A stretch of DNA of 34,608 bases from an uncultured Bacteroidales bacterium (GTDB lineage: Bacteria; Bacteroidota; Bacteroidia; Bacteroidales; UBA932), in the NCBI GenBank assembly GCA_947367315.1, contig CANBDX010000024.1:1-34608 (forward strand), written 5' to 3'. Positions 2,714-32,527 of the stretch are shown here, piece after piece. Numbering within the stretch: position 1 is the first letter of the stretch; every line of letters begins with the position of its first letter. The position numbers and the translations under genes were made by a program. The notes beneath the pieces were generated by a model that did not search any database, was not told the DNA's origin, and saw nothing but the letters and a program-made list of their open reading frames with translations.

Positions 2714-2753
2714 AAATATCCGATATTTTTCCAAGCACGAAGATAGTCATAAG

Positions 2754-2787
2754 ATATCCTGCACAGCCACCGACTTGTGCAGGATAT
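2754..2787. promoter_or_regulatory. Perfect 12-bp inverted repeat (ATATCCTGCACA-N10-TGTGCAGGATAT) in the divergent PL21/ftcD intergenic region; candidate operator
   Basis: Read directly: atatcctgcaca gccaccgact tgtgcaggatat; no T tract follows. Confidence 0.6.
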
Positions 2788-2878
2788 TGTCAAATTTGTT
2801 CAAGAAGCACATCGCATCTGAATAAAAACCACTATCTTTATGGGATTAATTGAAAGTATCTGAAAATTTAACCCATAT

Positions 2879-4582: not shown

Positions 4583-4726
4583 AGATTTCTCCACTCGTTT
4601 CACTCGGTCGTAATCGACGAAGTCGCTTGAGCGACAGCGAAAGAAATGACAATTTAAACGTTTCACTGTCATTTCGAGCAACATATTAATTGTCATTTCG
4701 AGCGACCGAAGGGAGTCGAGAAATCT
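4583..4726. repeat. Palindromic intergenic repeat copy 1 (agatttctccactcgtttcactcggtcg ... cgaccgaagggagtcgagaaatct)
   Basis: Imperfect terminal inverted repeats; near-identical to 6762-6904 and partly similar to 34164-34269. Confidence 0.85.
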
Positions 4727-4741
4727 ATAAAACTAATATTT

Positions 4742-6760: not shown

Positions 6761-6761
6761 C

Positions 6762-6904
6762 GATTTCTCCACTCGTTTCACTCGGTCGTAATCGACGAAG
6801 TCGCTTGAGCGACAGCGGAAGAAATGACAATTGAATCGTATAACTGTCTTTTCGAGCGACATGTTAATTGTCATTTCGAGCGACCGAAGGGAGTCGAGAA
6901 TTCT
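6762..6904. repeat. Palindromic intergenic repeat copy 2, near-identical to copy 1
   Basis: gatttctccactcgtttcactcggtcgtaatcgacgaagtcgcttgagcgacagcggaagaaatgacaatt...tgtcatttcgagcgaccgaagggagtcgagaattct. Confidence 0.85.
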
Positions 6905-6915
6905 ACAAAACAACT

Positions 6916-8388
6916 ATGACACATACAATTTCCAACAAGCATCTGACCATTGAAAAGGTCAATGAAATCGTTTCAAAGGGCCTCAAGATCGAGCTCAGCA
7001 AGGAGTCCGAGGCAGCCATTGTCAAATGCCGCAAATTCCTCGACAGCAAGATGGAGGACATCGGCAGACCTGTTTACGGAGTGACTACCGGATTCGGCTC
7101 ACTCTGCAACATCACCATACCGGCAGCAGACCTCTCAAGGCTTCAGCACAACCTAGTGATGTCACACGCATGCGGTACAGGCGAGACAGTCCGTCCTGAG
7201 ATAGTGAAGCTCATGCTCCTTCTCAAGGTTCAGTCTCTTTCATACGGATACTCGGGTGTACAACTCATTACCGTGCAGCGCCTGATGGACATGTTCAACA
7301 ACGATGTCCTTCCTGTGGTTTACCAGCAGGGCTCTCTCGGAGCATCCGGAGACCTCGCTCCGCTTGCCCACATGTGCCTTCCGCTCATCGGGCTTGGTGA
7401 AGTGCTTTACAAAGGTGAAGTGCGCCAGAGCGCCGATGTATGGAAAGAGCTTGGTTGGGAGCCGATAACTCTTCAGTCGAAGGAAGGACTGGCCCTTCTG
7501 AACGGCACCCAGTTCATGAGCGCACATGCAGTGTGGTCGCTCATCCAGGCAGAGCGTCTGTCCGACTGGGCCGACAAGATCGGAGCCATGTCGCTCGAGG
7601 CATATGACGGCCGCATAGAGCCATTCTACCCTCAGGTACATGAGGTACGCGCCCATAAGGGTCAGATAGAGACTGCGGCACATATCCGCGAGCTTCTTGA
7701 AGGCAGCGAGATCATACGCCAGAAGAAGGTACACGTGCAGGACCCGTATTCGTTCCGCTGCATCCCGCAGGTACACGGAGCCTCAAAGGACACCATCCGC
7801 TATGTGAAGTCAGTCATCGAGACAGAGATCAACAGCGCCACAGACAACCCTACGGTCTTCCCTGACGAGGACCTGATCATATCCGCAGGCAACTTCCACG
7901 GCCAGCCTATCGCCATCCCGATGGACATGCTGACTATCGCACTGTCTGAGCTGTCGAACATCTCCGAGCGCCGTATCTACAAGCTGATTTCCGGCCAGAG
8001 AGGTCTTCCGAACTTCCTCGTGGCAAAGCCAGGTCTGAACAGCGGCTTCATGATTCCTCAGTACACTGCGGCTTCCATCGTGAGCCAGAGCAAGGGGCTC
8101 TGCATGCCGGCATCTGCCGATTCCATCCCTTCGTCACAGGGGCAGGAAGACCATGTCAGCATGGGGGCAAACGCAGCCACCAAGCTCGTACGCGTAGTTG
8201 AGAACACCGAGAGAGTCCTCGCAATCGAGCTCTTCAATGCAGCCCAGGCACTTGAGTTCCGTCGTCCGCTGAAATCCTCATGGGCCATCGAGAAGATATT
8301 CGCCAAGTACCGCAAGACAGTACCGTTCATCGACGACGACCGATACATGCACCCACTCATCGAGAAATCGGTGGAGTTCCTGAAATAA
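6916..8388 (+). CDS. hutH: Histidine ammonia-lyase
   Basis: VYGVTTGFGSLCN, QGSLGASGDLAPLAHM (MIO-forming A-S-G), FHGQPIAIPMDML, QEDHVSMGANAATK. The track ORF starts at 6868 inside repeat copy 2; ATG at 6916 (MTHTISNKHLTIEKV) is preferred. Confidence 0.96.
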   Translation: MTHTISNKHLTIEKVNEIVSKGLKIELSKESEAAIVKCRKFLDSKMEDIGRPVYGVTTGFGSLCNITIPAADLSRLQHNLVMSHACGTGETVRPEIVKLMLLLKVQSLSYGYSGVQLITVQRLMDMFNNDVLPVVYQQGSLGASGDLAPLAHMCLPLIGLGEVLYKGEVRQSADVWKELGWEPITLQSKEGLALLNGTQFMSAHAVWSLIQAERLSDWADKIGAMSLEAYDGRIEPFYPQVHEVRAHKGQIETAAHIRELLEGSEIIRQKKVHVQDPYSFRCIPQVHGASKDTIRYVKSVIETEINSATDNPTVFPDEDLIISAGNFHGQPIAIPMDMLTIALSELSNISERRIYKLISGQRGLPNFLVAKPGLNSGFMIPQYTAASIVSQSKGLCMPASADSIPSSQGQEDHVSMGANAATKLVRVVENTERVLAIELFNAAQALEFRRPLKSSWAIEKIFAKYRKTVPFIDDDRYMHPLIEKSVEFLK

Positions 8389-8397
8389 GAAAATCAG

Positions 8398-8442
8398 ACC
8401 GTCAGTCATCAATAAGTGCAAAAGATGACTGACGGTTCTTTT
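8398..8442 (+). terminator. Rho-independent terminator downstream of hutH
   Basis: ACCGTCAGTCATC...GATGACTGACGGT 13-bp stem followed by tctttt. Confidence 0.85.
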
Positions 8443-8480
8443 ATAAGGAAGTTATCAACGGGCCGCTACCATTCCGATGC

Positions 8481-8520
8481 CACGACGCAGGGAAATCAGC
8501 CCAAAACTTTGCGTCGCGGA
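8481..8520. repeat. Interspersed palindromic repeat, copy A (degenerate)
   Basis: cacgacgcagggaaatcagcccaaaactttgcgtcgcgga; similar to copy B. Confidence 0.7.
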
Positions 8521-8552
8521 CGGAAAGGAGCGCAGGAGGAAGAAAACAAGGA

Positions 8553-8592
8553 CACGACGCAGGGAAAACGAGGCAAAACCCTGCGTCGTGGA
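8553..8592. repeat. Interspersed palindromic repeat, copy B (perfect 12-bp IR)
   Basis: CACGACGCAGGG aaaacgaggcaaaa CCCTGCGTCGTG. Confidence 0.8.
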
Positions 8593-8638
8593 CTAAGAAC
8601 GGCTTTACAGAGAAGTTCCTACCATATTACGACGACAT

Positions 8639-8710
8639 GCTGCAAGTCCCGGAAGTGCTGCAAGTCCCGGAAGTGCTGCAAGTCCCGGAAGTGCAGCAGG
8701 TCCCGGAAGT
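8639..8710. repeat. 18-bp tandem repeat, 4 units (gctgcaagtcccggaagt x3 + one variant)
   Basis: Three identical units at 8639, 8657 and 8675, then gcagcaggtcccggaagt at 8693. Confidence 0.95.
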
Positions 8711-8792
8711 GCTTATAGATTCCGGATATACTGTCGGTTTCGGATGTACTGATTTCAACGGACAGACAAAGGGGTTTGCAAGTTAGAACTGA

Positions 8793-9053
8793 TCACACCT
8801 TCCTTCGGGCAGAGAGCCATGCTGCGGCGTAAGAGCATGTGGCCTGACATATAAGGTCCTGCTCATGGGCGTAGTCGTAGGCGGTTTTGACGAGTTCTGC
8901 AGCCACGCCGCGCCCCTTCAGCGGCTTGGGCACGAAAGTATGGTCTATGATTAGGGAATTGCCGCTGAGGATGTATGACAGGAAGGCTTCATGGCCTTCA
9001 ACGGTGACAGCAAAACGGTGTCTGTCAGCAAGATGTCTGATACGGAGATTCAT
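8793..9053 (-). CDS. GNAT-family N-acetyltransferase (small YjdJ-like type)
   Basis: MNLRIRHLADRHRFAVTVEGHEAFLSYILSGNSLIIDHTFVPKPLKGRGVAAELVKTAYDYAHEQDLICQATCSYAAAWL; RGxA acetyl-CoA loop. The track start at 9104 is upstream of the likely Met. Confidence 0.85.
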   Translation of the reverse strand: MNLRIRHLADRHRFAVTVEGHEAFLSYILSGNSLIIDHTFVPKPLKGRGVAAELVKTAYDYAHEQDLICQATCSYAAAWLSARRKV

Positions 9054-9176
9054 AACTCTTTCATTTGTACATTGAATCTGCACGCTTTTCAAAACGGGTG
9101 CCAACCTATACCCAAGCCGTGATTAGAATCCACCCGTATCAGCAAAAGTGAAAGAAGGCACATCAATTCAGGTCTC

Positions 9177-9872
9177 TCAAAGTGCCAAAAGGAGATTGAA
9201 TAAAGGAACGACAATAGCTGTCATCAGTCCCATCAAAGCAATGGCCAGACCGCTGGCTGCACCTTCGACAGCACCCATTTCGATGGCACGAGCCGTACCT
9301 AACCCATGAGCGGAGGTCCCCATTGCAATTCCGCGGGCAACAGGAGATTTCAGGCGGATTATCCGAAGTATAAAAGGGCCGATAACAGCTCCAATGAATC
9401 CGCAAAAGATTACTGAAACTGCTGTCAGAGAAGGGTTTCCACCGGCAGACTCGGCCACATCCATAGCTATCGGTGTTGTTACCGACTTAGGCTCCAGAGA
9501 ATACATGAATATGTCATCAAGTCCGAAAACACGGCACAGAACCCAGACACTCACCACGCCCACGACACTGCCAATAGTGATTGAAGAAAGGATTCCTGCC
9601 AGGTTTTTCCTTATAGTCTCACGATGGTCATAAAGCAGAAGTGCCAGAGACACAACGCTTGGCCCAAGAAGAAAGTCTATAAAAGCTGTCGAATCCTGAT
9701 AGTACACGCATGGGATATCAGCCATTTCAAGGACTGCAATGACAACAGGGATGCTTATTATGAATGGATGAAGAAGAGCCATGCCGGTCTTCCTCCTTGC
9801 ATAGACTCCCATAAGATATGCGCCAATAGTCAAGGCAAGCATAAACGGGACATTCATCATTAACTCCTGCAT
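9177..9872 (-). CDS. lrgB: LrgB/CidB-family membrane protein
   Basis: 231 aa, multi-TM; PKSVTTPIAMDVAESAGGNPSLTAVSVIFCGFIGAVIGP and RGIAMGTSAHGLGTARAIEMGAVEGAASGLAIALMG. Confidence 0.92.
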   Translation of the reverse strand: MQELMMNVPFMLALTIGAYLMGVYARRKTGMALLHPFIISIPVVIAVLEMADIPCVYYQDSTAFIDFLLGPSVVSLALLLYDHRETIRKNLAGILSSITIGSVVGVVSVWVLCRVFGLDDIFMYSLEPKSVTTPIAMDVAESAGGNPSLTAVSVIFCGFIGAVIGPFILRIIRLKSPVARGIAMGTSAHGLGTARAIEMGAVEGAASGLAIALMGLMTAIVVPLFNLLLAL

Positions 9873-16618: not shown

Positions 16619-19600
16619 ATGAAGAAAAAATTATTTTTTATGATGATTGCACTGGTTTCGTGCTTCAGCATGACAGTGCACGCCCAAAAGGGAAGAATCA
16701 TCAATGGTAATGTTTCTGACGACGTAGCTCCGCTTATCGGCGTTGGTGTAATGATTCAAGGTACAAATACCGGTGTCGTTACAGATAATGACGGAAACTA
16801 CACAATCCAAAATGTAAAACCGACCGACGTGCTGGTTTTCTCTTACATGGGCTATGCTACCGAAGAAATTGAGGTAGGAAAAAGCGCCATAATCAACGTG
16901 GTGATGAAAGCTGACGCACGCACCATCGACGACGCTGTAGTTGTGGCAGTCGGTTACGGTGACGTACGCCGCAGAGACCTCACCGGTTCCATCGGCAAGG
17001 CCAACGTCAGCGACATTGTCAAAATACCTGTGACAAATGTTGAAGCCGCCCTCAACGGCCGTGTAGCTGGTGTGCAGGTTACATCTCAGGATGGTGGTCC
17101 CGGCGACAACTTCAACATCGTGATCCGTGGTGCCGGTTCCCTTACAGGAAGTACCGCTCCGCTTTACGTTATTGACGGCTTCCCTCAGGAGACATCCACA
17201 ATGAGCGCCCTCAACCCTAACGACATCGAATCGATCGATATCCTCAAGGACGCTTCTGCAACTGCAATCTATGGAGCACGAGGTGCAAACGGTGTAGTTA
17301 TCATCACTACCAAGAGAGGTGCATCAGGCAAGCCTACAGTAACATATAACGGTAACGTCACTTTCAGCACTGTGAAGAATGTGCCTGAAATGATGAACGC
17401 ATATGAATTCGTAGCTCTCCAGCAGGAGCTCTATGATGAGGAGAAGTTCGCTGAGCAGTATTTTGCATGGGAATACAAGTCATTGGAAGATTACTTGAAT
17501 GCTCCTTCATATGATTGGCAGCAGTATATCTTCCGCACTCCTGTAAGCCACAACCACCATGTATCCCTTAACGGATCGAACGGAGGTACCAAGTATGCAT
17601 TATCACTCTCTTACAGCGACCAGCAGGGTGTAATCATCAATTCCGGAGTAAAGCGCTACCAGGGTAGAGTGAACCTCCAGCAGAAAGTCGGAGAGAAATT
17701 CACTGTAGACTTCACAACGAACTACTCGACCAAAGTACAGGACGGTCCTACAGCTTCTACCACTGAGACAGCGATGTCATCAGCCTATATGTATAGTGTA
17801 TGGGGCTACAGACCTGTATCACCTAAGGGATCTGATCTTCTTGCTGCACCATTTGACGAATCAGTGAGCATGCAGGACGACTATCGCTTCAATCCTGTGC
17901 TTTCAGCAAGACACGAATACAGACACAAGATCACCACAGACCTCCAGGCAAATGTCGGAGTGACATACGAAATCATCAAAGGCCTCAAGCTCAAGGTGAT
18001 GGGAGGATACAGCCTGCGTGACTACACCAACAAGGAGTTCAACGGAAGAAACACAATTACCGGAAACGAGCATCCTAACAATACCAGAAGTAAGGGTATC
18101 AATGCAAAGCTCTCGAATACAAAGACACAGAACCTTATCAACGAGAACACATTGTCTTATTCCCTCAAGAAGAACAAGCATGGCTTCAACGCTCTGGTAG
18201 GTCTTTCATTCCAGAAGAGTTCTGCATATATGCATTCTATCACAGCAGAGCACATTACAAATGAGTCTTACTGGATGGCCGGACTCGGAAAGAGCGAAGG
18301 AGACACAAAGCCGACCGTAACGTCTTCATTGGGAGAGAATGCCCTTATGTCATACTTCGGTCGTGTAAACTACAACTACGACTCACGCTACTACGCTACA
18401 TTTACAATGCGTGCCGACGGATCCAGCAAGTTCGCACCAAAGAACCGTTGGGGCTACTTCCCTTCAGGATCAGTTGCATGGGCATTCGGTAGAGAAAGTT
18501 TCATCAAGGACAATCTTCCGTTCCTGACCAACGGTAAGCTCCGTGCCAGCTACGGTCTGACCGGTAACAACCGTATCGGAAACTACGACTGGATGGCTCA
18601 GCTGGTAACAGGCAACATGACATACGGCAACGCCAACTACTATCCTTGGGACAGCACCGTTACAACCGCATACATCCTCGGAAACATGGCGAACGAGTCT
18701 CTGAAATGGGAGACTACAGAGCAGATGGACCTCGGTATCGACCTCGGATTCCTCGACGACAGGATCAACCTTACAGTGGACTACTATGTAAAGAATACCC
18801 GTGACCTTCTCCTCGATGCTGACATCGCATCCAGTTCAGGATTCAGAACAGCTGTCATAAATGTAGGTCAGCTCAGAAACAGCGGATGGGAGTTCACCCT
18901 TGAGACCGTAAACATCAAGACCAAGAACTTCGAGTGGACCAGCAACTTCAACATCGCCTTCAATGAGAATAAGATCATGGCTCTCAACTCAGGCCAGACC
19001 GAGATGCAGTCATTTGTACACTGGGACAACAACTACAACAGCATGGTGGCATACGTGAGCCGCGTAGGAGAGGCTGCAGGTAGCATGTTCGGTTACATTT
19101 ATGATGGCGTCTATACAGTTGAGGACTTCGACTACAATGCAGAAACCGGAAAATACACCCTCAAGGAGGGCATTCCAGCATATGTAGAATCAACACAGCC
19201 AGGTGACCCTAAGTACAGAAATACCAATGATGACGATGAAATCAATGAGTCCGACAGGGTTGTAATCGGTAACGGTCAGCCGCTTCACACCGGTGGTTTT
19301 ACAAACAACTTCACATGGAAGGGATTCGACCTGAACATCTTCATGCAGTGGAGCTACGGAAACGACGTCCTCAATGCAAACCGTCTGGTATTCGAGAACT
19401 GCGGAGGAAAGGCTAACCGTAACATGTTCAAGACATTCACTGACAGATGGTCATTTGACAACCAGGACACAACTATGCCAAGGGCAAAAGCTCAGGGTGC
19501 TGCAGTATATAGCTCACGCTATGTAGAGGACGGATCATTCCTGAGACTCCGCAACATCACTTTGGGATATACCTTCCCTAAGAAGGCCCTCAAGAAGATG

Positions 19601-19774
19601 AAGATAAGCAATCTTAGACTGTATCTTGCTGCTGAGAATATCGCAACCCTTACAAACTATTCAGGAATGGACCCTGAAGTATCCGTAAGACATAGCGTCC
19701 TTACTCCAGGATTCGACTGGTCGTCATATCCAAGAGCCTTCGGCGCTTCATTCGGAGTTAATGTAACATTCTAA
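16619..19774 (+). CDS. SusC/RagA-family TonB-linked outer membrane protein
   Basis: Signal peptide, carboxypeptidase-regulatory-like N-domain, AVVVAVGYGDVRRRDLTGSIGKA, plug domain RIRGAGSLTGSTAPLYVIDGFPQ-like region, IDILKDASATAIYGARGANGVVIITTKRG, C-terminal beta-barrel ending in F. Confidence 0.97.
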   Translation: MKKKLFFMMIALVSCFSMTVHAQKGRIINGNVSDDVAPLIGVGVMIQGTNTGVVTDNDGNYTIQNVKPTDVLVFSYMGYATEEIEVGKSAIINVVMKADARTIDDAVVVAVGYGDVRRRDLTGSIGKANVSDIVKIPVTNVEAALNGRVAGVQVTSQDGGPGDNFNIVIRGAGSLTGSTAPLYVIDGFPQETSTMSALNPNDIESIDILKDASATAIYGARGANGVVIITTKRGASGKPTVTYNGNVTFSTVKNVPEMMNAYEFVALQQELYDEEKFAEQYFAWEYKSLEDYLNAPSYDWQQYIFRTPVSHNHHVSLNGSNGGTKYALSLSYSDQQGVIINSGVKRYQGRVNLQQKVGEKFTVDFTTNYSTKVQDGPTASTTETAMSSAYMYSVWGYRPVSPKGSDLLAAPFDESVSMQDDYRFNPVLSARHEYRHKITTDLQANVGVTYEIIKGLKLKVMGGYSLRDYTNKEFNGRNTITGNEHPNNTRSKGINAKLSNTKTQNLINENTLSYSLKKNKHGFNALVGLSFQKSSAYMHSITAEHITNESYWMAGLGKSEGDTKPTVTSSLGENALMSYFGRVNYNYDSRYYATFTMRADGSSKFAPKNRWGYFPSGSVAWAFGRESFIKDNLPFLTNGKLRASYGLTGNNRIGNYDWMAQLVTGNMTYGNANYYPWDSTVTTAYILGNMANESLKWETTEQMDLGIDLGFLDDRINLTVDYYVKNTRDLLLDADIASSSGFRTAVINVGQLRNSGWEFTLETVNIKTKNFEWTSNFNIAFNENKIMALNSGQTEMQSFVHWDNNYNSMVAYVSRVGEAAGSMFGYIYDGVYTVEDFDYNAETGKYTLKEGIPAYVESTQPGDPKYRNTNDDDEINESDRVVIGNGQPLHTGGFTNNFTWKGFDLNIFMQWSYGNDVLNANRLVFENCGGKANRNMFKTFTDRWSFDNQDTTMPRAKAQGAAVYSSRYVEDGSFLRLRNITLGYTFPKKALKKMKISNLRLYLAAENIATLTNYSGMDPEVSVRHSVLTPGFDWSSYPRAFGASFGVNVTF

Positions 19775-19785
19775 AGAACGAGAAA

Positions 19786-21384
19786 ATGAAAAAGACAATA
19801 ATCAGCATTTCATTGGCTGTCGCGTCAGTACTCTCCATCTGCTCATGCGCGGATTTTCTAACCACGACGCCATACGATTTCGACAACCCGGAGACATTCT
19901 ATACAACAGAGAAAAACTGCAAGATGGCTCTCGCCGGAGTATATAGCGCTATCACTCAGGCAGGAACATACGGCAACCGCTATTCAGTTTACATCTCAGG
20001 CTGCGACGACATGTCATTCTGGACCCGCAAGGCTTCATCAACTGCATCGAACGTATGCGGTAATGACCACACTCCTGCAAATGCAGATATATTTGAGGCT
20101 TGGGCCGATTTCTACACCGGCATCAATAGTGCAAACATCTTTATGAAAAAGATTGATGCTTCGGATTTGAGTGACGAGCTTAAGATTAAGTATAAGGGAG
20201 AGGCAAAATTCCTCCGTGCATTCTACCACTTCCTTCTTGTCCAGGGATGGTATGAAGTTCCTATCAGGACAGAATCCATCAATGACGTGAACAGTGCATC
20301 TTTGGAAGCTACAAGCCACGCAGAAGCTCTGAAATGGATCATCCAGGAGATGGAAGACTGTGTGGATATGGTGGATGACTCTGAATACGACAAGTCTCCT
20401 TCATATGTAAAGAAGAACACTGTCATGGGTATCCTCGCCAGAGTATATCTCTGGAGCGCAGGCTATCCTAACAACGGAGGCAAGGATGACTACGAAAAGG
20501 CCGCTTATTGGGCAAATGAGGTGAAGAAGTCCGGAAAGCACCAGCTTAACCCTGATTTTGAAAGCCTTTGGAAAATGATGTGTGGAGACCAGTATGATGC
20601 AGTCTACAATGAGTCTATCTGGGAGGCTGAATTCTACGGCTCACGTGATGATGGCAATATGACCATGGGACGTATCGGTAACACTTTGGGCAATCTCGAT
20701 CAAACTCCTACCAAGGTATCCAGCGGATTCTGCGCAGGAACATTGCTCCTTTGGGATCTCTACTCTGCAGATGACCCTCGCAGAGATGTGACAATGTGTC
20801 CTTATTATTATAAATATGACAAAAAAACCGAGAAGCTTACGAAGACGACTTGGACGGCCAGCCAGATCATCAAGCGCACATGCGGTAAGTTCAGAAGAGA
20901 ATGGGAGCCGGCATATTCTGCAAACAAGAACTGGACTCCAGAGAACTTCCCTCTCCTGCGTTACTCGGATGTACTCCTTATGCTTGCTGAAGCTGAGAAC
21001 GAAGCTAATCAGGGCCCTACAGCTCTTGCTTATGAGTGTATGAACCTCGTACGCGCACGCGCCCTGCAGCCTGAGCTTACAGCCGGACTGGACTATGCGG
21101 CATTCAAGCAGGAAGTAATGGATGAAAGAGCACGTGAGCTTACCTTCGAGGCTCTCCGCAAATACGACCTGATCCGTTGGGGAATCTATTTAGACCGCAT
21201 CAAGAATGACCTTGGAGAAGCTGTCAAGGACAAGCGTTGGAAAAATGGTACAGTTGAAGAAAATAACGACGGCGGCGTATCTGCATTCATAAGCAGAACC
21301 GCAGAAAAGCATCAGTTCCTCCCTATTCCTGAAAAGGAACTCGCAGTGAATCTGCTGCTTGAACAGAACAAGTACTGGAAATAA
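19786..21384 (+). CDS. SusD/RagB-family surface glycan-binding lipoprotein
   Basis: Lipobox LSICSC; FLTTTPYDFDNPETFYTTEKNCKMALAGVYSAI; AKFLRAFYHFLLVQGWYEVPI; C-terminal RARELTFEALRKYDLIRWG and FLPIPEKEL. Confidence 0.96.
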   Translation: MKKTIISISLAVASVLSICSCADFLTTTPYDFDNPETFYTTEKNCKMALAGVYSAITQAGTYGNRYSVYISGCDDMSFWTRKASSTASNVCGNDHTPANADIFEAWADFYTGINSANIFMKKIDASDLSDELKIKYKGEAKFLRAFYHFLLVQGWYEVPIRTESINDVNSASLEATSHAEALKWIIQEMEDCVDMVDDSEYDKSPSYVKKNTVMGILARVYLWSAGYPNNGGKDDYEKAAYWANEVKKSGKHQLNPDFESLWKMMCGDQYDAVYNESIWEAEFYGSRDDGNMTMGRIGNTLGNLDQTPTKVSSGFCAGTLLLWDLYSADDPRRDVTMCPYYYKYDKKTEKLTKTTWTASQIIKRTCGKFRREWEPAYSANKNWTPENFPLLRYSDVLLMLAEAENEANQGPTALAYECMNLVRARALQPELTAGLDYAAFKQEVMDERARELTFEALRKYDLIRWGIYLDRIKNDLGEAVKDKRWKNGTVEENNDGGVSAFISRTAEKHQFLPIPEKELAVNLLLEQNKYWK

Positions 21385-21456: not shown

Positions 21457-23877
21457 TTATTCGACCTTACCCTTTCGATAATTCAAAGGACGTACATGAT
21501 AAAGGTCATTGAAGCACTTGGAGAAATAGTTTGACGATGCAAATCCTGTTCTATCGGCAATTTCCGAGATAGACAACTCCGGATTATTCTTAAGCAAATA
21601 TGCTCCTCTCTTCAGACGGAGTGTCATAATGAATTCATTCGGGGTCTGTCCCGTTATAGCCTTTATCTTTGCAAAAAGATTCGTACGGCTCATAGCCATC
21701 TCATGGGCAAACATATTGACATTGAATTCAGGATTGTCCAGATTTTCCTCTATAACGGAAGTGGCCTTATCCATCATCACCTGATCCAGCGAGTTTGTAG
21801 CCAAAATCTTGGAAGACATATCCGGCTGACGCGAGAACTTCTCCTGTAGCATCTTTCTCGAATTGACCAGATTATTGCATCGTGAAACCAATAGACGAGT
21901 ATCAAAAGGCTTGGCAATATAGTCATCCGCACCTATCAGTATGCCCTCGATATTGTGTTCCACATCAACACGTGCTGTCAGAAGTACCACCGGGATGTGA
22001 CATGTGGCGACATCGGACTTTATTTTCCTGCATAGGTCGGTTCCATTCATCTTTGGCATCAACACATCGGTCACAACGATATCCGGCAACTTTGCAAGAC
22101 ACTCTTCCCATGCCTGGGCACCATCAGAAGCTGTTATTATATTGTAAAATGGAGAGAATATCTCCTCCAGAAGTTTTCTGACCGCCTCATTGTCATCCAC
22201 AACAAGCATCGTATACTCTTTATTTTCTGTCTCTACACCATTACCCGGCTCTTTCAATAAAGGCAAAGGGACATCAGAATCCTCTTTTAAAGCAAACTGA
22301 TTATCGGTAAAATGAGAGTATCCTAAAGGAAGGGTTACAATAAATGAAGAACCTTTCCCTTCTACGCTTTCAACCGTTACAGTGCCCTTATGGAGTTCCA
22401 CAATGCCCTTCACTATCGCCAAACCGATACCTGTACCATCCTGAGCTCTTGACTCTATGTTATCGACACGGTAGAATTGTCTGAATATATTCTCCTTCTC
22501 ATCTTCGCTCAGCCCACACCCTGTATCGCTGACAGACAGCACCATGTCCGTTCCGGACAAGCCTACAAAGATGTTTATTGCCCCCCCCGGTTCGGTATAT
22601 TTGAGCGCATTGGCCAACAGATTCCTCAAGACTTTCTGGAACTGCGACTGATCGTACCATACCTCCAGACGATCCGACTCAGTCTCCATCGTTAGAGAGA
22701 TATTACGCATTTTCGCATACTCCTCGAAGACAAGATAAAACTCCTTTACAAGTTTGATGATATCGTGTGGAGCGACCTTAATCTGCAGTTCGCCATGCTC
22801 CTGCTTACGGAACTCCAGAAGTTCTGAAATAAGCTCCTTCAAATGCACGCTGTTCTTATAAATTGAAAGGACCTTATTATAAAGCGAAGGAGTGAACTCC
22901 TTACTATACATCAGATTCTCTATCTGGGATATTACGACCGTAAGAGGCGTACGTATCTCGTGCGAGATATTGGTAAAGAATCTGAGTTTTGACTGGTTCA
23001 GGATTTCAATATCATTATTCCTGCGTTTTTCATATTCAAGAGATTGGCGGAGTTTCTGTCCTCTATTATATGTCACCATGACAACGACTATAAAGAAACC
23101 TATAATAATCGCCCATATCAGCAATGCCCACCACCTGAAGTACCACGGAGGCATAATTCGGATATTTAGAATTGCAGGAGACAATGCTTCCTCTTCATCA
23201 AACACTGAAATCCGCCCGTCCGTCCCAAACAGATACAGACCTTCATGGCACGTACCAGCCCAGATATTGTTCTCCGAGTCCATATACATTCTGTTGGAGC
23301 ACACAGATGGTACGATACACTTGCAAGACCTGTCCTCTTCATTGAACTTCCATATTCCCTTGCCTTTTGTTCCAACCCAGATCTCACTATCGCGGAAAAC
23401 CATATCTGTGATGACAGCCGGAAAACCTTTCTTTTTTATAGGTGTAAATACTTCAGTATCCGGACTCCACTTATAGAGCATGTTACCTGAGCATGTGTAC
23501 AGTATCCCATCATGACAGTTGATTGTACGGACATTTTCAATGGGAAGCATATCGGTCTTCCTTGTTACGGGATCCATGGAAAACACTCCTTCACCACAAA
23601 GCATCCATATGTGTCCGTTCTTATCCCCGACCACGCGAAGCACCTCACCATTCATGACCATTTCCATTTCATTACCGTCATATCTTCCTAGTCCTTTGCG
23701 CGTACCGACCCATATGATTCCATACTCATCAACATATAAGTCATTTATCTGCAACTGCGAAAAGCTGGTCCCGGCAGTCAGGTTGGAATAGGAAATCGGC
23801 TGACCGGCAGCATAGCTGCAGCAGAACATTAACAGAACTGTCAGAATAATCGATCCGAAAGTTTTTTTAGCACACAT
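21457..23877 (-). CDS. Hybrid two-component system regulator (HTCS) with shortened periplasmic sensor
   Basis: 806 aa: signal peptide, ~5 reg_prop-like blades (e.g. INDLYVDEYGIIWVGTRKGLGRYDG), one TM, HisKA (FFTNISHEIRTPLTVV), HATPase (GTGIGLAIVKGIVELHKG), REC (MLVVDDNEAVRKLL...DVLMPKMNGTDLC), AraC HTH (SISEIADRTGFASSNYFSKCF). Confidence 0.95.
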   Translation of the reverse strand: MCAKKTFGSIILTVLLMFCCSYAAGQPISYSNLTAGTSFSQLQINDLYVDEYGIIWVGTRKGLGRYDGNEMEMVMNGEVLRVVGDKNGHIWMLCGEGVFSMDPVTRKTDMLPIENVRTINCHDGILYTCSGNMLYKWSPDTEVFTPIKKKGFPAVITDMVFRDSEIWVGTKGKGIWKFNEEDRSCKCIVPSVCSNRMYMDSENNIWAGTCHEGLYLFGTDGRISVFDEEEALSPAILNIRIMPPWYFRWWALLIWAIIIGFFIVVVMVTYNRGQKLRQSLEYEKRRNNDIEILNQSKLRFFTNISHEIRTPLTVVISQIENLMYSKEFTPSLYNKVLSIYKNSVHLKELISELLEFRKQEHGELQIKVAPHDIIKLVKEFYLVFEEYAKMRNISLTMETESDRLEVWYDQSQFQKVLRNLLANALKYTEPGGAINIFVGLSGTDMVLSVSDTGCGLSEDEKENIFRQFYRVDNIESRAQDGTGIGLAIVKGIVELHKGTVTVESVEGKGSSFIVTLPLGYSHFTDNQFALKEDSDVPLPLLKEPGNGVETENKEYTMLVVDDNEAVRKLLEEIFSPFYNIITASDGAQAWEECLAKLPDIVVTDVLMPKMNGTDLCRKIKSDVATCHIPVVLLTARVDVEHNIEGILIGADDYIAKPFDTRLLVSRCNNLVNSRKMLQEKFSRQPDMSSKILATNSLDQVMMDKATSVIEENLDNPEFNVNMFAHEMAMSRTNLFAKIKAITGQTPNEFIMTLRLKRGAYLLKNNPELSISEIADRTGFASSNYFSKCFNDLYHVRPLNYRKGKVE

Positions 23878-23947
23878 AATAAAACGCCTATATTATAACT
23901 ACACAAAATTAGACAACCCCTTTCCTTCGCAAAACACACGACAGGAT

Positions 23948-24049: not shown

Positions 24050-27000
24050 ATGATAAAGAAATTGACAATCATTATAGCGGCAGCCATACTGGCGGGGTCA
24101 CACGCCCACGCACAGGGAATAGAACTCGACAGATTCTATACATTCGAATGCGACGATGTCCCTGCAACGATATCAGCCGGGAACGGAAGATTGTCCATAT
24201 CCGGCAAGCATTTCCGCGAAGGGGAACATTCTCTCAGATGGGACTTCTCCGAAAAGGATGTGCTTTCACTCAGACAGGACCTGATGTTTGAACACAAGGA
24301 CACGACAGGAAAGGATACATACCTTTCTTCATTCGTGTTCTGGGTCTATAATGAAAAACCTTTCAAGGAGAAGATGACCGTGGAGTTCCTTAAGGAAGGC
24401 AAGATATGCTCATGGTTCGAAATGGGCATGGATTTCACAGGATGGAGGGGAGCGTGCATTTCATATGAACGGGACATGCAGGGCTGTCCGGCAACAGGAA
24501 TGGACGAGATCCGGATGAGCTCTCCGGCAAGCGAAGGAACCATCTATATCGACCATCTGGTGACGGCTTCGAAAATAGACTCCAGATTTCAGTCGCCGGA
24601 CGTGCATCTACCTTTCGTGAACAAAGACACGAAGAACCACTGGCTTCTGGTATACCGGCATTCGCTGATGGAGCCGGACATCGAACTCACACCCCTTACA
24701 GACATGCAGGTTGCGGACATGGAGATCATGTCAGAACGTTTCAGAAGCACTCTTTATGAACCGAAGCCGTTCACGGCAGGAAGGATGGAGAAACTGAGAA
24801 AAGGCTTCGGATACTACAGGATTAGCTATGATGGTGACGGTGCCGTAACAGGACGTCCTATATTCATGGTACGCCATTCGGAAATATATGAGAGATTCTT
24901 CCCTAACTGGAGGAAGCAGATGTTTGCTCAGGACGGGAATGAATTCGATCCTTTCTTCGAGTTGATGAAGGCAGTAGCCATCGGATATTGCGATGCCAAG
25001 GAGCATGGAGACAAGGAGGAACTGAAAAGGATGTTCCTATCCATGTATGACTACATAACAGACCTCGGAGTCGCTGCCGGAAGCAGCTGGGGTTACTGTC
25101 ACCACTACGGCTACAATATCCGAGGACTATACCCCGCATATTTCCTCATGAAGGATGTGCTGAAGGAGGCTGGAAAGCTCAAGCAGGCGGAAGAGACCAT
25201 GTGCTGGTATGCCATAACCAATGAAGTTTATCCCAAACCGGCAAAAAACGGAATCGTAATAGACCAGTTCAACACCCATATGGAAGGGCGAATAGCCAGC
25301 ATGCTCATCATGGAGGACTCTCCGGAAAAGGTGCGCTACCTGCGTTCGTTCTCACGCTGGCTGGACTACGGATCACGGCCTTCGGACGGTCTGTCCGGAT
25401 CCTTCAAGACAGACGGCACATGCTTCCATCACTGCAACCACTACCCTGCCTATGCCACCGGAGGGCTTGACGGTGCAGTAAATGCCCTCTACTGCCTCAG
25501 CGGAACCGGCTTCAGGATATCCGAATACGCACACTCCACAATCAAGAACGTGCTCCTGACAATGAGGTTCTACTGCAATACACACCAATGGCCTCTGGTC
25601 CTGTCCGGAAGACATCCTAACGGAAAGAACAGGCTGGTTCCGATTCATTACGGACTCATGGCGAAGGCAGGAACCCCTGACGGCTCGTCCGCCATAGACA
25701 CAGAGATGGCAAAGGCCTTCCTCAGACTGACTGCTCCGCTGAAGAAAAAAAGCCGTTACGAAAAGAAGCTTGAAAAAGAGCTGCTTGCATCCGGAATCAC
25801 ACCCGAAGATACTCCACAGGGCAGCAAGTCTCTCGGATATGGATGTACACTTATCCACCGTCGCGGTAATTGGATGGCTGTATTCAGGGGACACAGCAGA
25901 TATATATGGACCTCGGAGCAGTATCTTAACGCCAATTTCTACGGGCGTCATCTCGGATACGGAGCACTGGAAATCATGACTGGGCCAGAGGGTGCACCGG
26001 TAACCCTTGCCACCAGCGGATGGAAAGAAAAGGGATTCGATTGGAACCGCATACCGGGAGCCACATACATCCACCAGCCTTTCGAAAAGCTCAGGGCAAA
26101 AGTGCTCAACGTGGATACATTCTCAGGATTCGAGGAGATGCTTTACTCTGACGAGGCTTTTGCCGGAGGACTGTCATCAGAGGGATGGAACGGCAACTTC
26201 GGCATGATCCTCCACGAACATGACAAATATGACGGAAGCATGCGCGCACGCAAGTCATACCACGTCGTGGATAATGTGATAGTCTGTCTAGGCAGCGACA
26301 TCACCAACACAGAGATCGGACGCAGCACCGAGACTGCAGTTTTCCAACTGTCAGCCGACACAGACCAGGACAAGGAACACTGGAGCAAGGCTTCTTCGTC
26401 TGACGTCACTTTCATCGACAGGAACTGCACTGGCTATTATATCGGCAAGGCTTCGCGTGGAAATGCGAAATTCATTGCAGCATATCCCCAGGTAACCGTA
26501 TGGGAGCGAAAGGAAGGTCAGTCGCAGGGAGACTGGGTATCGCTCGTAATCGATCATGGAAAGGCACCGGAAGGAGCATCTTATGAATATGCCGTAATGC
26601 CGGGAACTGACAGCAGATCGTTGAAGAAATTCTCACGCAACCCTTCATACAAGGTCCTCAGGCAGGACAGGAAGGCACATATCGTGGAATTTGACGCAGG
26701 AATAAGCTCATATGTGTTCTTCGAAAGGCCTGACTTCCGGCTTGACGGGGTGGTATGCAGCGCGGACACGTCATGTCTGGTGATGACCACACAGAAGAAA
26801 GACTATATGAACCTGTCTGTCGCACAGCCTGACCTCGCACTGTACAGAGGTGGAAGCGACGAACTCTTCGATAAGGAAGGGAAAAGAGTCGAGAGAAGCA
26901 TATATTCAAGACCTTGGAAAGACAGCCCGAGTCTTGAAATTCCTGTGAGCGTGACCCTCAAGGGATCATGGGATATTATCGAGGCTTCAGAATACGTATC

Positions 27001-27088
27001 CTCACGTCAGGAAAACGGAAATACCGTCATCACGGTAAGATGCTCGGAAGCCAGGAGTTATGACATACCGCTAAAGAAACAAAGATAA
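24050..27088 (+). CDS. PL8-family chondroitin sulfate ABC lyase-like enzyme, secreted
   Basis: 1012 aa with signal peptide; GYCHHYGYNIRGLYPAYFLMKDVL, DGLSGSFKTDGTCFHHCNHYPAYATGGLDGAVNALYCLSGTGFRIS, MRFYCNTHQWPLVLSGRHPNGK; N-terminal carbohydrate-binding-like and C-terminal beta domains typical of chondroitinase ABC. Confidence 0.9.
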   Translation: MIKKLTIIIAAAILAGSHAHAQGIELDRFYTFECDDVPATISAGNGRLSISGKHFREGEHSLRWDFSEKDVLSLRQDLMFEHKDTTGKDTYLSSFVFWVYNEKPFKEKMTVEFLKEGKICSWFEMGMDFTGWRGACISYERDMQGCPATGMDEIRMSSPASEGTIYIDHLVTASKIDSRFQSPDVHLPFVNKDTKNHWLLVYRHSLMEPDIELTPLTDMQVADMEIMSERFRSTLYEPKPFTAGRMEKLRKGFGYYRISYDGDGAVTGRPIFMVRHSEIYERFFPNWRKQMFAQDGNEFDPFFELMKAVAIGYCDAKEHGDKEELKRMFLSMYDYITDLGVAAGSSWGYCHHYGYNIRGLYPAYFLMKDVLKEAGKLKQAEETMCWYAITNEVYPKPAKNGIVIDQFNTHMEGRIASMLIMEDSPEKVRYLRSFSRWLDYGSRPSDGLSGSFKTDGTCFHHCNHYPAYATGGLDGAVNALYCLSGTGFRISEYAHSTIKNVLLTMRFYCNTHQWPLVLSGRHPNGKNRLVPIHYGLMAKAGTPDGSSAIDTEMAKAFLRLTAPLKKKSRYEKKLEKELLASGITPEDTPQGSKSLGYGCTLIHRRGNWMAVFRGHSRYIWTSEQYLNANFYGRHLGYGALEIMTGPEGAPVTLATSGWKEKGFDWNRIPGATYIHQPFEKLRAKVLNVDTFSGFEEMLYSDEAFAGGLSSEGWNGNFGMILHEHDKYDGSMRARKSYHVVDNVIVCLGSDITNTEIGRSTETAVFQLSADTDQDKEHWSKASSSDVTFIDRNCTGYYIGKASRGNAKFIAAYPQVTVWERKEGQSQGDWVSLVIDHGKAPEGASYEYAVMPGTDSRSLKKFSRNPSYKVLRQDRKAHIVEFDAGISSYVFFERPDFRLDGVVCSADTSCLVMTTQKKDYMNLSVAQPDLALYRGGSDELFDKEGKRVERSIYSRPWKDSPSLEIPVSVTLKGSWDIIEASEYVSSRQENGNTVITVRCSEARSYDIPLKKQR

Positions 27089-27091
27089 AAT

Positions 27092-28693
27092 ATGAAGAAA
27101 ATGAACATCTCAGCCAAGGGAATTGCATCCTTCTCGCTTATGGCAGGAGCTACCCTAGGCCTTGGCTCATGTAAGGAAAACGAGCGCCCAAACTTCCTTA
27201 TCATCCTGGCAGATGATTTCGGAGGAATGGACACCGGAGCTTGTGGAAGCACATATTACGAGACCCCAAACATCGACCGCATCGCGGCTGAAGGCATCCA
27301 TTTCACTGACGGATATGCGGCATGCAATGTGTCCAGCCCTACCAGGGCATCTCTCATGACCGGAATGTACACTCCATGTCACGGAATTACCGACTGGATC
27401 GGCTCTCCTTCCGGGGAGGCATGGCGCAAGAAGGGATGGCACAACATGATGCTTCCTCCTGAGTACGAGCACAACCTCGACACCGAGAAGTTCCTATGCC
27501 TTCCTCAGGCACTCAAGGATGCCGGATACAGCACCTTCATGGCAGGAAAATGGCATCTCGGAGACCGCACCACCCCGGAAATGGCAGGTTTCGAAATCAA
27601 CAAGGGAGGCTATCATGCCGGACAGCCTAAGGGCGGATACTTCTCACCATATCAGAACCCTAAGCTTGAAGACGGCCCTGACGGGGAAAATCTTTCGATG
27701 CGTCTGGCTCAGGAGACCAACGCATTCATTGAGAATCATCTCAAAGAGAATGGTGACAGGAAACCATTCATGGCATATCTCTCATTCTATGCCACCCATA
27801 CCCCTGTAGAGACCACCAAAGAGAACTGGGAATATTTCCGCCAGAAAGCCATAGACAATCCGGTGACAGACCGCGAAGCGTTCAAACTGGACGGAAACTG
27901 GACAGTGGCGCAGATACAGGATAATCCTCTATACGCCGGTCTTGTAAGACAGATGGACGATGCAGTAGGCTGTGTGATGCAGAGACTCAAGGAACTCGGA
28001 GCGGATAAGAACACCATAGTCATATTCATGTCGGACAACGGAGGATTCGCATCATTGGGATGGTTCTCCACCTCAAACTACCCTTATCGGGGAGGCAAGT
28101 CATACCAGTGGGAAGGCGGCACACGAATTCCGTTCTTCATCTATGCTCCTATGGCAAAGGATAACGGGCGCAAATGCATGACCCCTGTAAACACAGTAGA
28201 TATCTACCCTACTCTCCTGGACTACGCTCAGGTGGAATGTCCTGATGTGGACGGTGTCTCTCTCAGGCCTGTCATAGAAGGCGGTGATATTGAGGAGCGT
28301 CCTATGTTCTGGCATTATCCTCACTACGGAGGCTCTGGCGGAGACCCTACTTCAATCATCAGAGACGGTGACTGGAAACTTATCTACTACCATGAAGACG
28401 GCCATTGCGAACTATACAACCTCCGGGAAGACATGATGGAACAGCACGATGTCATTGCGGACAATGCCCGGAAGGCAGAAGACATGAGGATCAGCCTCAT
28501 GCAATGGCTCAAGGACAGCGGAGCAAGAATGCCGGTACCAGACCCTGAATACAATCCTGATGAAAGGCAGAAGTTCCTGAAAAAAGAACGCAAGAAGATA
28601 CTTGACGAGCAGAACAGGAAAAGGGATGCCAGGCTCAAGGACGACTACCAGCCGGACAAGACCTGGTGGGGCAGTCAGGCAATAGACGACTAG
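27092..28693 (+). CDS. Sulfatase (family S1), Ser-type, lipoprotein-like leader
   Basis: RPNFLIILADDFGGMDTGACGSTYYETPNIDRIAAEGIHFTDGYAACNVSSPTRASLMTGMYTP; S-x-P-x-R active-site motif; GKWHLGD; MSDNGG. Confidence 0.95.
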   Translation: MKKMNISAKGIASFSLMAGATLGLGSCKENERPNFLIILADDFGGMDTGACGSTYYETPNIDRIAAEGIHFTDGYAACNVSSPTRASLMTGMYTPCHGITDWIGSPSGEAWRKKGWHNMMLPPEYEHNLDTEKFLCLPQALKDAGYSTFMAGKWHLGDRTTPEMAGFEINKGGYHAGQPKGGYFSPYQNPKLEDGPDGENLSMRLAQETNAFIENHLKENGDRKPFMAYLSFYATHTPVETTKENWEYFRQKAIDNPVTDREAFKLDGNWTVAQIQDNPLYAGLVRQMDDAVGCVMQRLKELGADKNTIVIFMSDNGGFASLGWFSTSNYPYRGGKSYQWEGGTRIPFFIYAPMAKDNGRKCMTPVNTVDIYPTLLDYAQVECPDVDGVSLRPVIEGGDIEERPMFWHYPHYGGSGGDPTSIIRDGDWKLIYYHEDGHCELYNLREDMMEQHDVIADNARKAEDMRISLMQWLKDSGARMPVPDPEYNPDERQKFLKKERKKILDEQNRKRDARLKDDYQPDKTWWGSQAIDD

Positions 28694-28775: not shown

Positions 28776-31001
28776 TTACTCCACTACCACAACGGTGGTG
28801 TCTGCTGCTACTTCAACTTCCACGACTTCCTCTACTACTTCCGTCTTCTCAAACCAAGGAAGCGGAGAAGGGAACCCTGCCCATGCGAAGAGGTTGCCGA
28901 GCCAGAGGCCTACAAGCACCGTTGCAATGCTTGCAATGGAGATGCACCACTTCTTCCAAGGTGCAAGACCCTTTCTTGCATATGGGTCCTTCAGCTTGAG
29001 TTTCGGATACTTAGCAACATCCGTGAGGGTCTCTCCGAAAGGAATGCTGATCTTGGATGCCGCATTGACAGCCCAACCGTTGGCATTCAGGAGAGGTGCG
29101 ATGTTGCGGCGGCGGAGCTTGAGCCATGCCATCACCATTGCCGGTCCTGAGATTACAAGCAGCACACCCACGAACGCGAGGATGACCTGCCACCAGGCAA
29201 GTGCGAAGATGCCTTTTGCAAGAGCTGCAACAGCCGAGCCGATCATGCCCAGAGCCATACCTATGGCAGCGAAGATACCGGCGAATTTTCCGATGTCGAA
29301 GGCCTGAGGAGCTGCCGGAGCCGAGCCGTCTGCAGGGGCTGCCTTAGGAGCAGCATTGATCTTTGCAGTGGCGTCGCTCATGATCTTGGCATCCTTGTCA
29401 GCCGCACTCTTGCTTATGAGATTTTCGATAGCTGTGGCCATCCTGCGGTAAGGAGACCAGAACGACTGTGCAATGCTGATAGGATTGTCGATGATCTTTG
29501 TAATTACCGCATCCCATTCCACGCCTGCATTGTCATAATAGACAGCATTCTTTCCTACCATCAGGTCTCCTACATCGCCCACCGTCACAGCCGCCACGAT
29601 GGAGATCTTGCCGGCCTGAGTCTTGGTGGTGCAGTCGCAGTAAACCAGATACATTCCGCTGGAAGGAGCCATTGCATTGTGCTTGCCGGCATCGGCCACA
29701 GGCATACAGAAATGACATTCCCTCTGGTCGATGATGAGTCTTCCGGACTGGAATATAGCCTTCTCCTTCTTATTATAGAAATCCTGAAGAGTAACGAAGT
29801 TTCTGAGCAGACGGTAGAAGTCGCGGTAAACATGGAGGAACTTGGTCACAGTGTCGATATTTTCGGCCTCCTCCTTGAGTGCTGCATCCTGAGCCACGAG
29901 TGCAAGGAGAGATTCCTTGCGGTTCTGCTCGAGAAGGGTCTTCACTGCATCAAGGCCGAGACCTTCCACTGCAGCTCCTGCCTTGGCAGCCTTCCATGAT
30001 GTATATGCAGCGAATTTCGCTCCGATGGCGGCCCAGTCAGCCTCAGTGAGCACCTTGGCGCCTGGCTCTACTGCAATTGCCTTCAATGTCTCGAACTGAG
30101 CGGCCCATGCAGGGTTCACCGGCTCAGAGAGGTCGATTTCGGCTTTTCCTGTCACGCGCGCTATAGGATATGAAGCGATCTCGTCAGTCTTGCCTGTGAG
30201 GTTATCCGCGCTGATGGCCTGGATGCTTGCCGTCTGCACGTCAAGAGATGCAGTGCTGTCAGGAGAGAAGGCAGCAAGCTTCGAACGCACGAAGAAATCC
30301 TTCACCTTCGCATCAAGAGCATTATATGCAGCAATGGCGGCATCAGTCCTGTCCCCGTAAGGAGCCTCTACAGTGGCCTCGTTCCATGCCACGTAATCCG
30401 CGAGAGCCTTATAGAATGCCTCTACGAGATCGGCATTTACGCCCATTGCGCCGCTTCTGTCAGCCACGCCGCCAAGACATGTCACAGCGGCAGCCACAGC
30501 AGCCTTATCGGCAGCATCTTCAGCAGTAGCCTCGGTGATGACTCCATCTCCGTTGAAACGGGTCTTGGCAAAGATTGCAGCATTGTCAGCTGTGTCTGCT
30601 ATAGAGATTACAGTACCTTCCTTGCCGAGGTTCTCAAGAATCTGCTTTGCTGAGTTGTAGAGTTTCTTTCCGGTATCAGAGTCTGTATTGATATCCTTGA
30701 TGTCGATGCTGTCCTTGCCTTCGAGAAGAAGGTCGGCATCATTCAGAAGTCCGGTAATCCATTTTGATGTGCAGATGACATCATTGATACGAAGCTTTCC
30801 ATCTGAATCGCAGTCCATGTAGGAGAGACTCTTCTCATCGATCTCCAATCCCTTCACCGGACAAGAGAGGACAGTCCACATCTTAGGGTCAAGTTCAGAA
30901 AGATGAGCGATATCCTCGCCCTTTGTGATCTTCACGCGTGAGGTGCCCCCGATATTATCGAAGTCCCACTTGTACTTTTTGTCTTTGGTCAGTAGTGCCA
31001 T
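28776..31001 (-). CDS. Uncharacterised 741-aa membrane protein with EF-hand-like motifs
   Basis: YMDCDSDGKLRINDV fits an EF-hand loop (DxDxDGxLxxxD); further DINTDSDTGKKLY and FNGDGVITEATAED; three or so C-terminal TM segments; low-complexity V/E tail (VVEEVVEVEVAADTTVVVVE). Confidence 0.75.
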   Translation of the reverse strand: MALLTKDKKYKWDFDNIGGTSRVKITKGEDIAHLSELDPKMWTVLSCPVKGLEIDEKSLSYMDCDSDGKLRINDVICTSKWITGLLNDADLLLEGKDSIDIKDINTDSDTGKKLYNSAKQILENLGKEGTVISIADTADNAAIFAKTRFNGDGVITEATAEDAADKAAVAAAVTCLGGVADRSGAMGVNADLVEAFYKALADYVAWNEATVEAPYGDRTDAAIAAYNALDAKVKDFFVRSKLAAFSPDSTASLDVQTASIQAISADNLTGKTDEIASYPIARVTGKAEIDLSEPVNPAWAAQFETLKAIAVEPGAKVLTEADWAAIGAKFAAYTSWKAAKAGAAVEGLGLDAVKTLLEQNRKESLLALVAQDAALKEEAENIDTVTKFLHVYRDFYRLLRNFVTLQDFYNKKEKAIFQSGRLIIDQRECHFCMPVADAGKHNAMAPSSGMYLVYCDCTTKTQAGKISIVAAVTVGDVGDLMVGKNAVYYDNAGVEWDAVITKIIDNPISIAQSFWSPYRRMATAIENLISKSAADKDAKIMSDATAKINAAPKAAPADGSAPAAPQAFDIGKFAGIFAAIGMALGMIGSAVAALAKGIFALAWWQVILAFVGVLLVISGPAMVMAWLKLRRRNIAPLLNANGWAVNAASKISIPFGETLTDVAKYPKLKLKDPYARKGLAPWKKWCISIASIATVLVGLWLGNLFAWAGFPSPLPWFEKTEVVEEVVEVEVAADTTVVVVE

Positions 31002-31066: not shown

Positions 31067-32527
31067 CTACATCCTCCGGACGTCCTGAACTCCGTTGCGG
31101 GTCATGGTTATACGGAAGTGGTGGTATTCGACTGAGCCGTCGTGCTGAAGCTGGAAGACTATATTTACATAGTATATCTTCTGAACATCTATGCATCGGA
31201 TATCTCCGTTCTCATCGACCATATCGACCGGCACCTGAGGGTTGTCCATCTTCTGGGTGAAGCGGGTCAGGTGGAGGCGCATGATTTCATTGACTCCGCG
31301 CATAGGGTACTCGTCCACCGATTTGAGAACCACATCATCTATAGTCAGATGCTTGCGGTATAGAAGGATCTTCTCTTCGAACACGCGAGGCTCATCCTCC
31401 ACCGAGGAAGCATTGTTCCGCAAGGCCATCACCTCCTGAGGGGTGCGGGACATGGATATGAAGTCGAATCCTTCCTTCATCTGCCCCACCTTGGTCTTTC
31501 CGATGACGATGCTGGCCTTCTTGTCGTAGTATTTATTGCCGAGCCTGTGCGCGAAATAGTAGCGCAAAAGGTCCTTGATGCGGTCCTTAAGCATATAGCT
31601 GACTACGAGGACTACAAAAAGAGGCCAGGTGATGTTGCCGTATTTCATCTGGCTGTACCATCCTACCGCCGTAGCGAAAATCATCGCCACACCTGCAGCT
31701 ATGCTGTAATATATCTGCTGCACGGCCACCCCGTCCTTTTTCTTGTCCAGACGTATGTAAAGTTCGCTCTCGATGAACTTCTTCAGCATGCCGTGATGAT
31801 AGACGAGCTGGCGGTCATGTTCCGGATCATTGTGGAGAATGCCGTAATCGTTGGACACCTTGTAGCGTCTTTCGGACATGATGAGTTCCATGAATCCCTT
31901 TCGGATGTCTGCATATGCCGCCGGATTCATGGAGGAGTCTATGGCGCGGATTATCCTTGTGGTCCGGAGTTCCACAACATGGCTCATAAACTCGTCACAT
32001 AGACGGAAGTAGCTGCGGGTCTTGTCTGAGACTGTCGGAACATCTATAATCTGATACAACGCACGGAATTTCTTCAGGATTTCCGAAGATGACTTCACAT
32101 AGTCCTCCACAAGATACCCCGCCGAATCAAGGGAGCGTGCCGCACGGATATGGGCAGCCTGATCACGCAGTGCGCTTTTGAATATGGCTGCGAACATCTT
32201 GAGATGATACTCGTAGGCATCCAGATCTGTCTGCTGATGACTGCCGACGACATTTTCCAGAGCCTGACGGAGAATAGTCAACGGTTTGGAAGTGTCCTGA
32301 GCGATATCGCGAAGAAGATAGACAGGAGTAATCAGACGGACATTGGACTTGATATCGCGATAGAACTGCTTTTTTCCGTAGTTCTCCGGATTGATATCCA
32401 GACTGTTGGGCACGAATATCCATGCGTTTACGGAGAAGTCGTCACGGATTCCGTCCTCGCAGCAGTCGAATCCGAATTTGAACTCGACCGAGAAATTATC
32501 GTGTTTTTTCGCCTGTATTGAAATCAT
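31067..32527 (-). CDS. Uncharacterised 486-aa protein with two central TM helices
   Basis: Uninterrupted ORF; YYSIAAGVAMIFATAVGWYSQ and ITWPLFVVLVVSYMLKD as TM segments; ORF ends 65 bp before the 741-aa gene. Confidence 0.75.
   Translation of the reverse strand: MISIQAKKHDNFSVEFKFGFDCCEDGIRDDFSVNAWIFVPNSLDINPENYGKKQFYRDIKSNVRLITPVYLLRDIAQDTSKPLTILRQALENVVGSHQQTDLDAYEYHLKMFAAIFKSALRDQAAHIRAARSLDSAGYLVEDYVKSSSEILKKFRALYQIIDVPTVSDKTRSYFRLCDEFMSHVVELRTTRIIRAIDSSMNPAAYADIRKGFMELIMSERRYKVSNDYGILHNDPEHDRQLVYHHGMLKKFIESELYIRLDKKKDGVAVQQIYYSIAAGVAMIFATAVGWYSQMKYGNITWPLFVVLVVSYMLKDRIKDLLRYYFAHRLGNKYYDKKASIVIGKTKVGQMKEGFDFISMSRTPQEVMALRNNASSVEDEPRVFEEKILLYRKHLTIDDVVLKSVDEYPMRGVNEIMRLHLTRFTQKMDNPQVPVDMVDENGDIRCIDVQKIYYVNIVFQLQHDGSVEYHHFRITMTRNGVQDVRRM

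Follow-up and report, generated by a model that had tools for sequence, protein, structure and literature searches.

The window, a stretch of 34,608 nucleotides of an uncultured Bacteroidales bacterium, carries a PUL in which Pfam detected a SusC-like TonB-dependent transporter (16619..19774), a SusD-like protein (19786..21384), a polysaccharide lyase of family 8 (PL8; 24050..27088; PF09093, PF09092 and PF02278) and a sulfatase (27092..28693; PF00884), all encoded on the forward strand. Between the SusD-like gene and the lyase, on the reverse strand, lies the gene of a hybrid regulator (HTCS; 21457..23877), a complete reading frame of 806 aa according to the open reading frame list and Pfam. 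The neighbours on both sides are intact, the arrangement expected of a PUL-associated regulator, and the PL8 setting of the original prediction was recovered by Pfam.

Upstream of the HTCS start, TAATTTTG (23904-23911) and TTTG (23930-23933), both on the reverse strand, lie 18 bases apart; by eye they resemble the Bacteroides promoter consensus. Two further reverse-strand reading frames beside the PUL (28776-31001 and 31067-32527), of 741 and 486 aa, have no match in Pfam or NCBIfam. Farther away, the window encodes a heparin/heparan sulfate lyase HepB, an enzyme acting on host glycans (392-2734, reverse strand; NCBIfam equivalog NF045571, 1276.8 bits). Another contig of the same genome (G000:C14, L138) contains two PL8 genes, a GH88-like gene and a sulfatase-like reading frame (2064-5063, reverse strand; 5182-6486 and 6423-9560, forward strand). 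With this second glycosaminoglycan locus, the PUL of the window is not the only route of this genome to these glycans.

The cytoplasmic half of the HTCS

The HTCS frame comprises 806 codons without internal stops, and four domains, each above the Pfam cut-off, were found on the same chain, the combination that characterizes HTCSs. These are HisKA (residues 297-362, 22792..22989, PF00512), with the phospho-acceptor H306 in an SHE motif; HATPase_c (residues 409-518, 22324..22653, PF02518), with the N, G1 and G2 boxes; a receiver domain (Response_reg, residues 558-666, 21880..22206, PF00072), with D604, K656 and a CHIP motif at 626-629; and an AraC-type DNA-binding domain (HTH_18, residues 724-802, 21472..21708, PF12833), with K737 inside and D698 just upstream. 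All the kinase and receiver residues are kept, and so is the complete S/CHIP-DK autoinhibitory motif (CHIP 626-629, D698 and K737), in which D and K are separated by 39 residues, as in BT4124. Such a motif is present in most HTCSs and keeps the unphosphorylated protein off DNA (PMC11253607). The cytoplasmic domains are indeed intact, as had been predicted. A signal peptide, a periplasmic Reg_prop region and a TM helix are likewise present on the evidence of Pfam, AlphaFold and alignment. By its cytoplasmic half and its context, the protein is a member of the HTCS family.

Anatomy of the shortened sensor

The periplasmic part, read along the reverse strand, begins with a signal peptide or N-terminal hydrophobic helix (residues 1-26, 23800..23877; predicted helix 2-23), recognized by its hydrophobic sequence. 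It is followed by a segment comprising the N-terminal closing strand, a linker and the start of blade 1 (residues 28-47, 23737..23796), delimited by a conservation count against 32 HTCSs and by AlphaFold. Five propeller blades (residues 44-227, 23197..23748) correspond to blades 1-5 of propeller 1 according to alignments, AlphaFold strands and the Reg_prop matches that Pfam gave in this region. Piecewise alignment places a deletion junction at residues 228-238 (23164..23196), and the last strand of a Y_Y_Y domain plus the TM helix occupy residues 234-272 (23062..23178), as judged by alignment to the PP(F/W)Y..WWA of relatives and by a helix from residue 245. Pfam gave no Y_Y_Y match (PF07495) in the window HTCS even at E<=10; its full-length relatives do yield one.

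AlphaFold was run on residues 1-300 with a 15-row alignment (14 relatives and the window protein) and produced a model with a mean pLDDT of 84.9. It contains 20 strands forming five complete four-stranded blades (residues 44-226, pLDDT mostly above 90) and a long helix starting at residue 245; residues 28-43 have low pLDDT and no strand, leaving the N-terminal strand without a partner. A single-sequence run on the whole protein was poor (pLDDT 41.9) and was set aside. The original prediction of about five blades between signal peptide and TM helix, and of a direct jump from a blade to the last Y_Y_Y strand, is borne out by the alignments and by this model, a check that it had proposed. With about 200 residues of blades, the sensor lacks both defining features of the canonical double-propeller type, namely two seven-bladed propellers (alignment and AlphaFold) and a Y_Y_Y domain, of which the last strand alone aligns.

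The missing segment and the nearest known systems

Alignment to full-length homologues, also proposed in advance, located the loss. In co-linear piecewise alignments to full-length HTCSs (14 of 14), the first 228 residues correspond to the beginning of propeller 1 and residues 234-806 to the stretch from the last Y_Y_Y strand to the C-terminus; a single gap between about 228 and 234 (about 23164-23199) accounts for 484-526 absent residues. The missing part comprises blades 6-7 of propeller 1, the entire propeller 2 and almost the whole of Y_Y_Y, and the frame is open; both the junction anticipated near 23165-23200 and the in-frame loss of the second propeller and most of Y_Y_Y were recovered. 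The observation that, relative to canonical HTCSs, about 520 of roughly 750 sensing residues are missing with the frame kept is confirmed. An initial global alignment had assigned the stump to propeller 2, an end-gap effect; local and piecewise alignments give propeller 1. Between blades 1 and 2, about 10 further residues are missing in frame, a second deletion; of the 32 other aligned HTCSs, L071 alone is equally short at this place.

The closest relatives over the cytoplasmic half are a same-genus HTCS of 1358 aa (56% identity) and two others of 1368 and 1357 aa (54% each), the last of which (G464:C3) adjoins a PL8 50% identical to that of the window. These proteins (G666:C25, G357:C2 and G464:C3) resemble the window HTCS in kinase, receiver, AraC domain, TM helix and PUL context but have complete sensors in 1357-1368 aa, against 806 aa in the window.

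Among characterized systems, BT4663 (PDB 4a2l, 4a2m), BT3049 (3v9f) and BT4673 (3ott) share the order of parts and the blade type of the window HTCS. The profile of the full-length relatives matches the BT4663 sensor almost end to end (E 7.5e-166), and the sensor entries of these three proteins are the top structural matches of the stump. They possess two seven-bladed propellers and a Y_Y_Y domain (about 750-800 aa), whereas five blades and a single Y_Y_Y strand are all that is present in the window protein. HTCSs with short sensors are already known as the BT1754 type, a fructan regulator with a periplasmic-binding-protein fold of about 300 aa (PMC3243724). This type also sets a short sensor atop the same cytoplasmic machinery, but its sensor is a complete binding-protein fold and that of the window is a propeller remnant.

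Search for other short HTCSs

A family of equally short HTCSs with a single propeller would have spoken against a deletion, and it was sought in up to 400 same-genus and 393 same-order genomes, in which well over a hundred HTCS-like matches were listed. No second complete propeller-type HTCS this short was found among the matches listed from these roughly 400 same-genus and 393 same-order genomes, a strong negative but not an exhaustive one, in which part of the frames of 900-1100 aa were read individually. The other listed frames below 900 aa that were checked end at a contig edge or have no propeller sensor; L074 and L188, for example, are receiver-first proteins of 750 aa without a propeller sensor. 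L132 and L137 (915-941 aa) carry periplasmic-binding-protein sensors of the BT1754 type. Among the frames of 900-1100 aa that were read, L191 and L192 carry other N-termini and L190 and L193 start mid-propeller and look like broken genes. The short HTCS appears to be an isolated case, seen in one draft genome.

Two further observations emerged from these surveys. The propeller HTCS frames L190 (G590:C1, 947 aa) and L133 (G197:C35, 1142 aa) start mid-propeller away from contig ends and are probably broken genes, so that HTCSs with damaged sensors may be no rarity. In the genome of the window itself, two frames of 950 aa (G000:C21) and 925 aa (G000:C13) match the propeller and AraC parts and not the kinase; judging from these matches, both could be propeller regulators of the one-component kind, like BT4673.

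Deletion or assembly artefact

The source is a single draft MAG (2.39 Mb, 116 contigs, 84% complete), the window is one of its contigs, and the surveys returned no further short propeller HTCS; it could therefore be supposed that assembly or binning bridged the missing 1.5 kb by linking reads of a full-length gene or of two strains. We consider such a junction artefact unlikely in view of several features of the locus. The frame is kept across the join (1 in 3 by chance) and the join coincides with domain-like boundaries. No further copy of the junction DNA, from which a false join might have started, exists in the genome (best other match, 29 bases), and a direct repeat was looked for at the junction and none was seen. 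The missing middle is absent elsewhere in the assembly, where the best matches are paralogues at about 30%; a contig search for a second strain gave one unrelated match and found none. Codon use in the stump resembles that of the remaining gene, in favour of a real deletion, and the second small in-frame deletion within the stump and the drift of the N-terminal closing segment also speak against an artefact.

This drift was measured by a leave-one-out conservation count against 32 HTCSs, restricted to positions with a conservation of 80% or more among relatives. All five such positions in residues 28-47 are changed, whereas the blades differ at 2 of 17 (Fisher p = 0.0008), five being a small number and some of the changes conservative. 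Almost all full-length relatives depart at 0-2 of their 5-6 conserved N-terminal positions, with the exception of L067, also full-length, which departs at 4 of 6. PorZ, which has the same double-propeller plan, completes blade VII of propeller 2 with its N-terminal strand (PMC5121618), and by analogy with PorZ we infer the same closing role in HTCSs. Once propeller 2 was gone, the N-terminal segment would have been free to drift, and the drift, as read from the alignments, fits and supports a genuine deletion of some age. Altogether, a real internal deletion yielding a ligand-blind regulator with fixed output is the most likely reading.

Possible working of the short regulator

The ancestor of the window HTCS would have been an ordinary double-propeller HTCS of a glycosaminoglycan-type PUL, in which an in-frame internal deletion removed about 520 residues, beginning where blade 5 of propeller 1 ends and stopping at the last Y_Y_Y strand; the signal peptide, the TM helix and the kinase, receiver and AraC domains are preserved along with the reading frame. 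In BT4663, both propellers bind disaccharides on their entry faces, and the Y_Y_Y spacer takes part in dimerisation (PMC5121618). The window HTCS lacks propeller 2, the Y_Y_Y domain and two of the blades of propeller 1, so the known input path is broken; judging from known HTCS structures, the five-blade remnant would neither bind the inducing sugar in the manner known nor transmit a closing motion to the TM helices. The output of the kinase-receiver-DNA-binding relay would then be constant and independent of ligand, its level being given by the basal balance of kinase and phosphatase activities. With the CHIP-DK motif retained, phosphorylation should remain a requirement for DNA binding, and the motif argues against a switch that binds DNA in the unphosphorylated state. 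For the originally suggested constitutive, ligand-blind or differently gated protein, the sequence shows the absence of the known ligand-binding and dimerising parts, from which the behaviour of the kinase is extrapolated. The window HTCS thus probably works without reading its sugar signal. We favour this combined account, an in-frame sensor deletion giving a phosphorylation-dependent relay of fixed output, at slightly better than even confidence.

Alternatively, the deletion may be real and the regulator dead, with a misfolded stump that renders the protein unstable or locked off in a gene that is being lost. The known ligand-binding and dimerising parts are gone, and in a comparison of 15 sensors no other has diverged as far, relative to the identity of its cytoplasmic half, as the stump (mean residual -0.074). 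A dead gene that had drifted for long should, however, show frameshifts or stops, but the 806 codons form an open frame throughout, no catalytic or inhibitory motif has been lost, and codon use is unremarkable, that of the stump being similar to that of the cytoplasmic part. On balance, a dead regulator appears rather unlikely, though it deserves some weight.

The five complete blades of the AlphaFold model could also be taken to close into a small propeller that retains a sensing function and controls the kinase in the absence of Y_Y_Y, and sugar-binding five-fold propellers do exist (PMC5121618). The stump has cysteines at sites that are mostly cysteine-free in relatives and that could tether such a ring; its total of 7 nevertheless falls within the range of 0-10 seen in relatives, and the tether was not retained as an argument. 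Against a closed ring, the best structural matches are HTCS sensors, the stump can be fitted to the seven-bladed WDR5 at 3.0 A across about 205 columns, a result that an open 5/7 arc would give, the N-terminal strand has no partner, and the surveys found no family of such proteins. The model matches six- and seven-bladed propellers in addition to HTCS sensors and is biased by the homologue alignment of seven-blade relatives, so that structure comparison does not separate an open 5/7 arc from a closed ring. A sensing mini-propeller is in our opinion quite improbable, and its fullest form, a minimal HTCS whose closed five-bladed propeller would be a working sensor without Y_Y_Y and would drive the kinase directly, is a shade more doubtful still; if true, the large double propeller would be dispensable for gating.

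If the favoured deletion is real, the window HTCS would represent a natural sensor-deletion allele within its own PUL. With it one could test whether the kinase is restrained by the double propeller and Y_Y_Y or requires them for activation, a question usually approached with engineered mutants, and it would provide an example of a glycan-degradation locus freed from sugar control.
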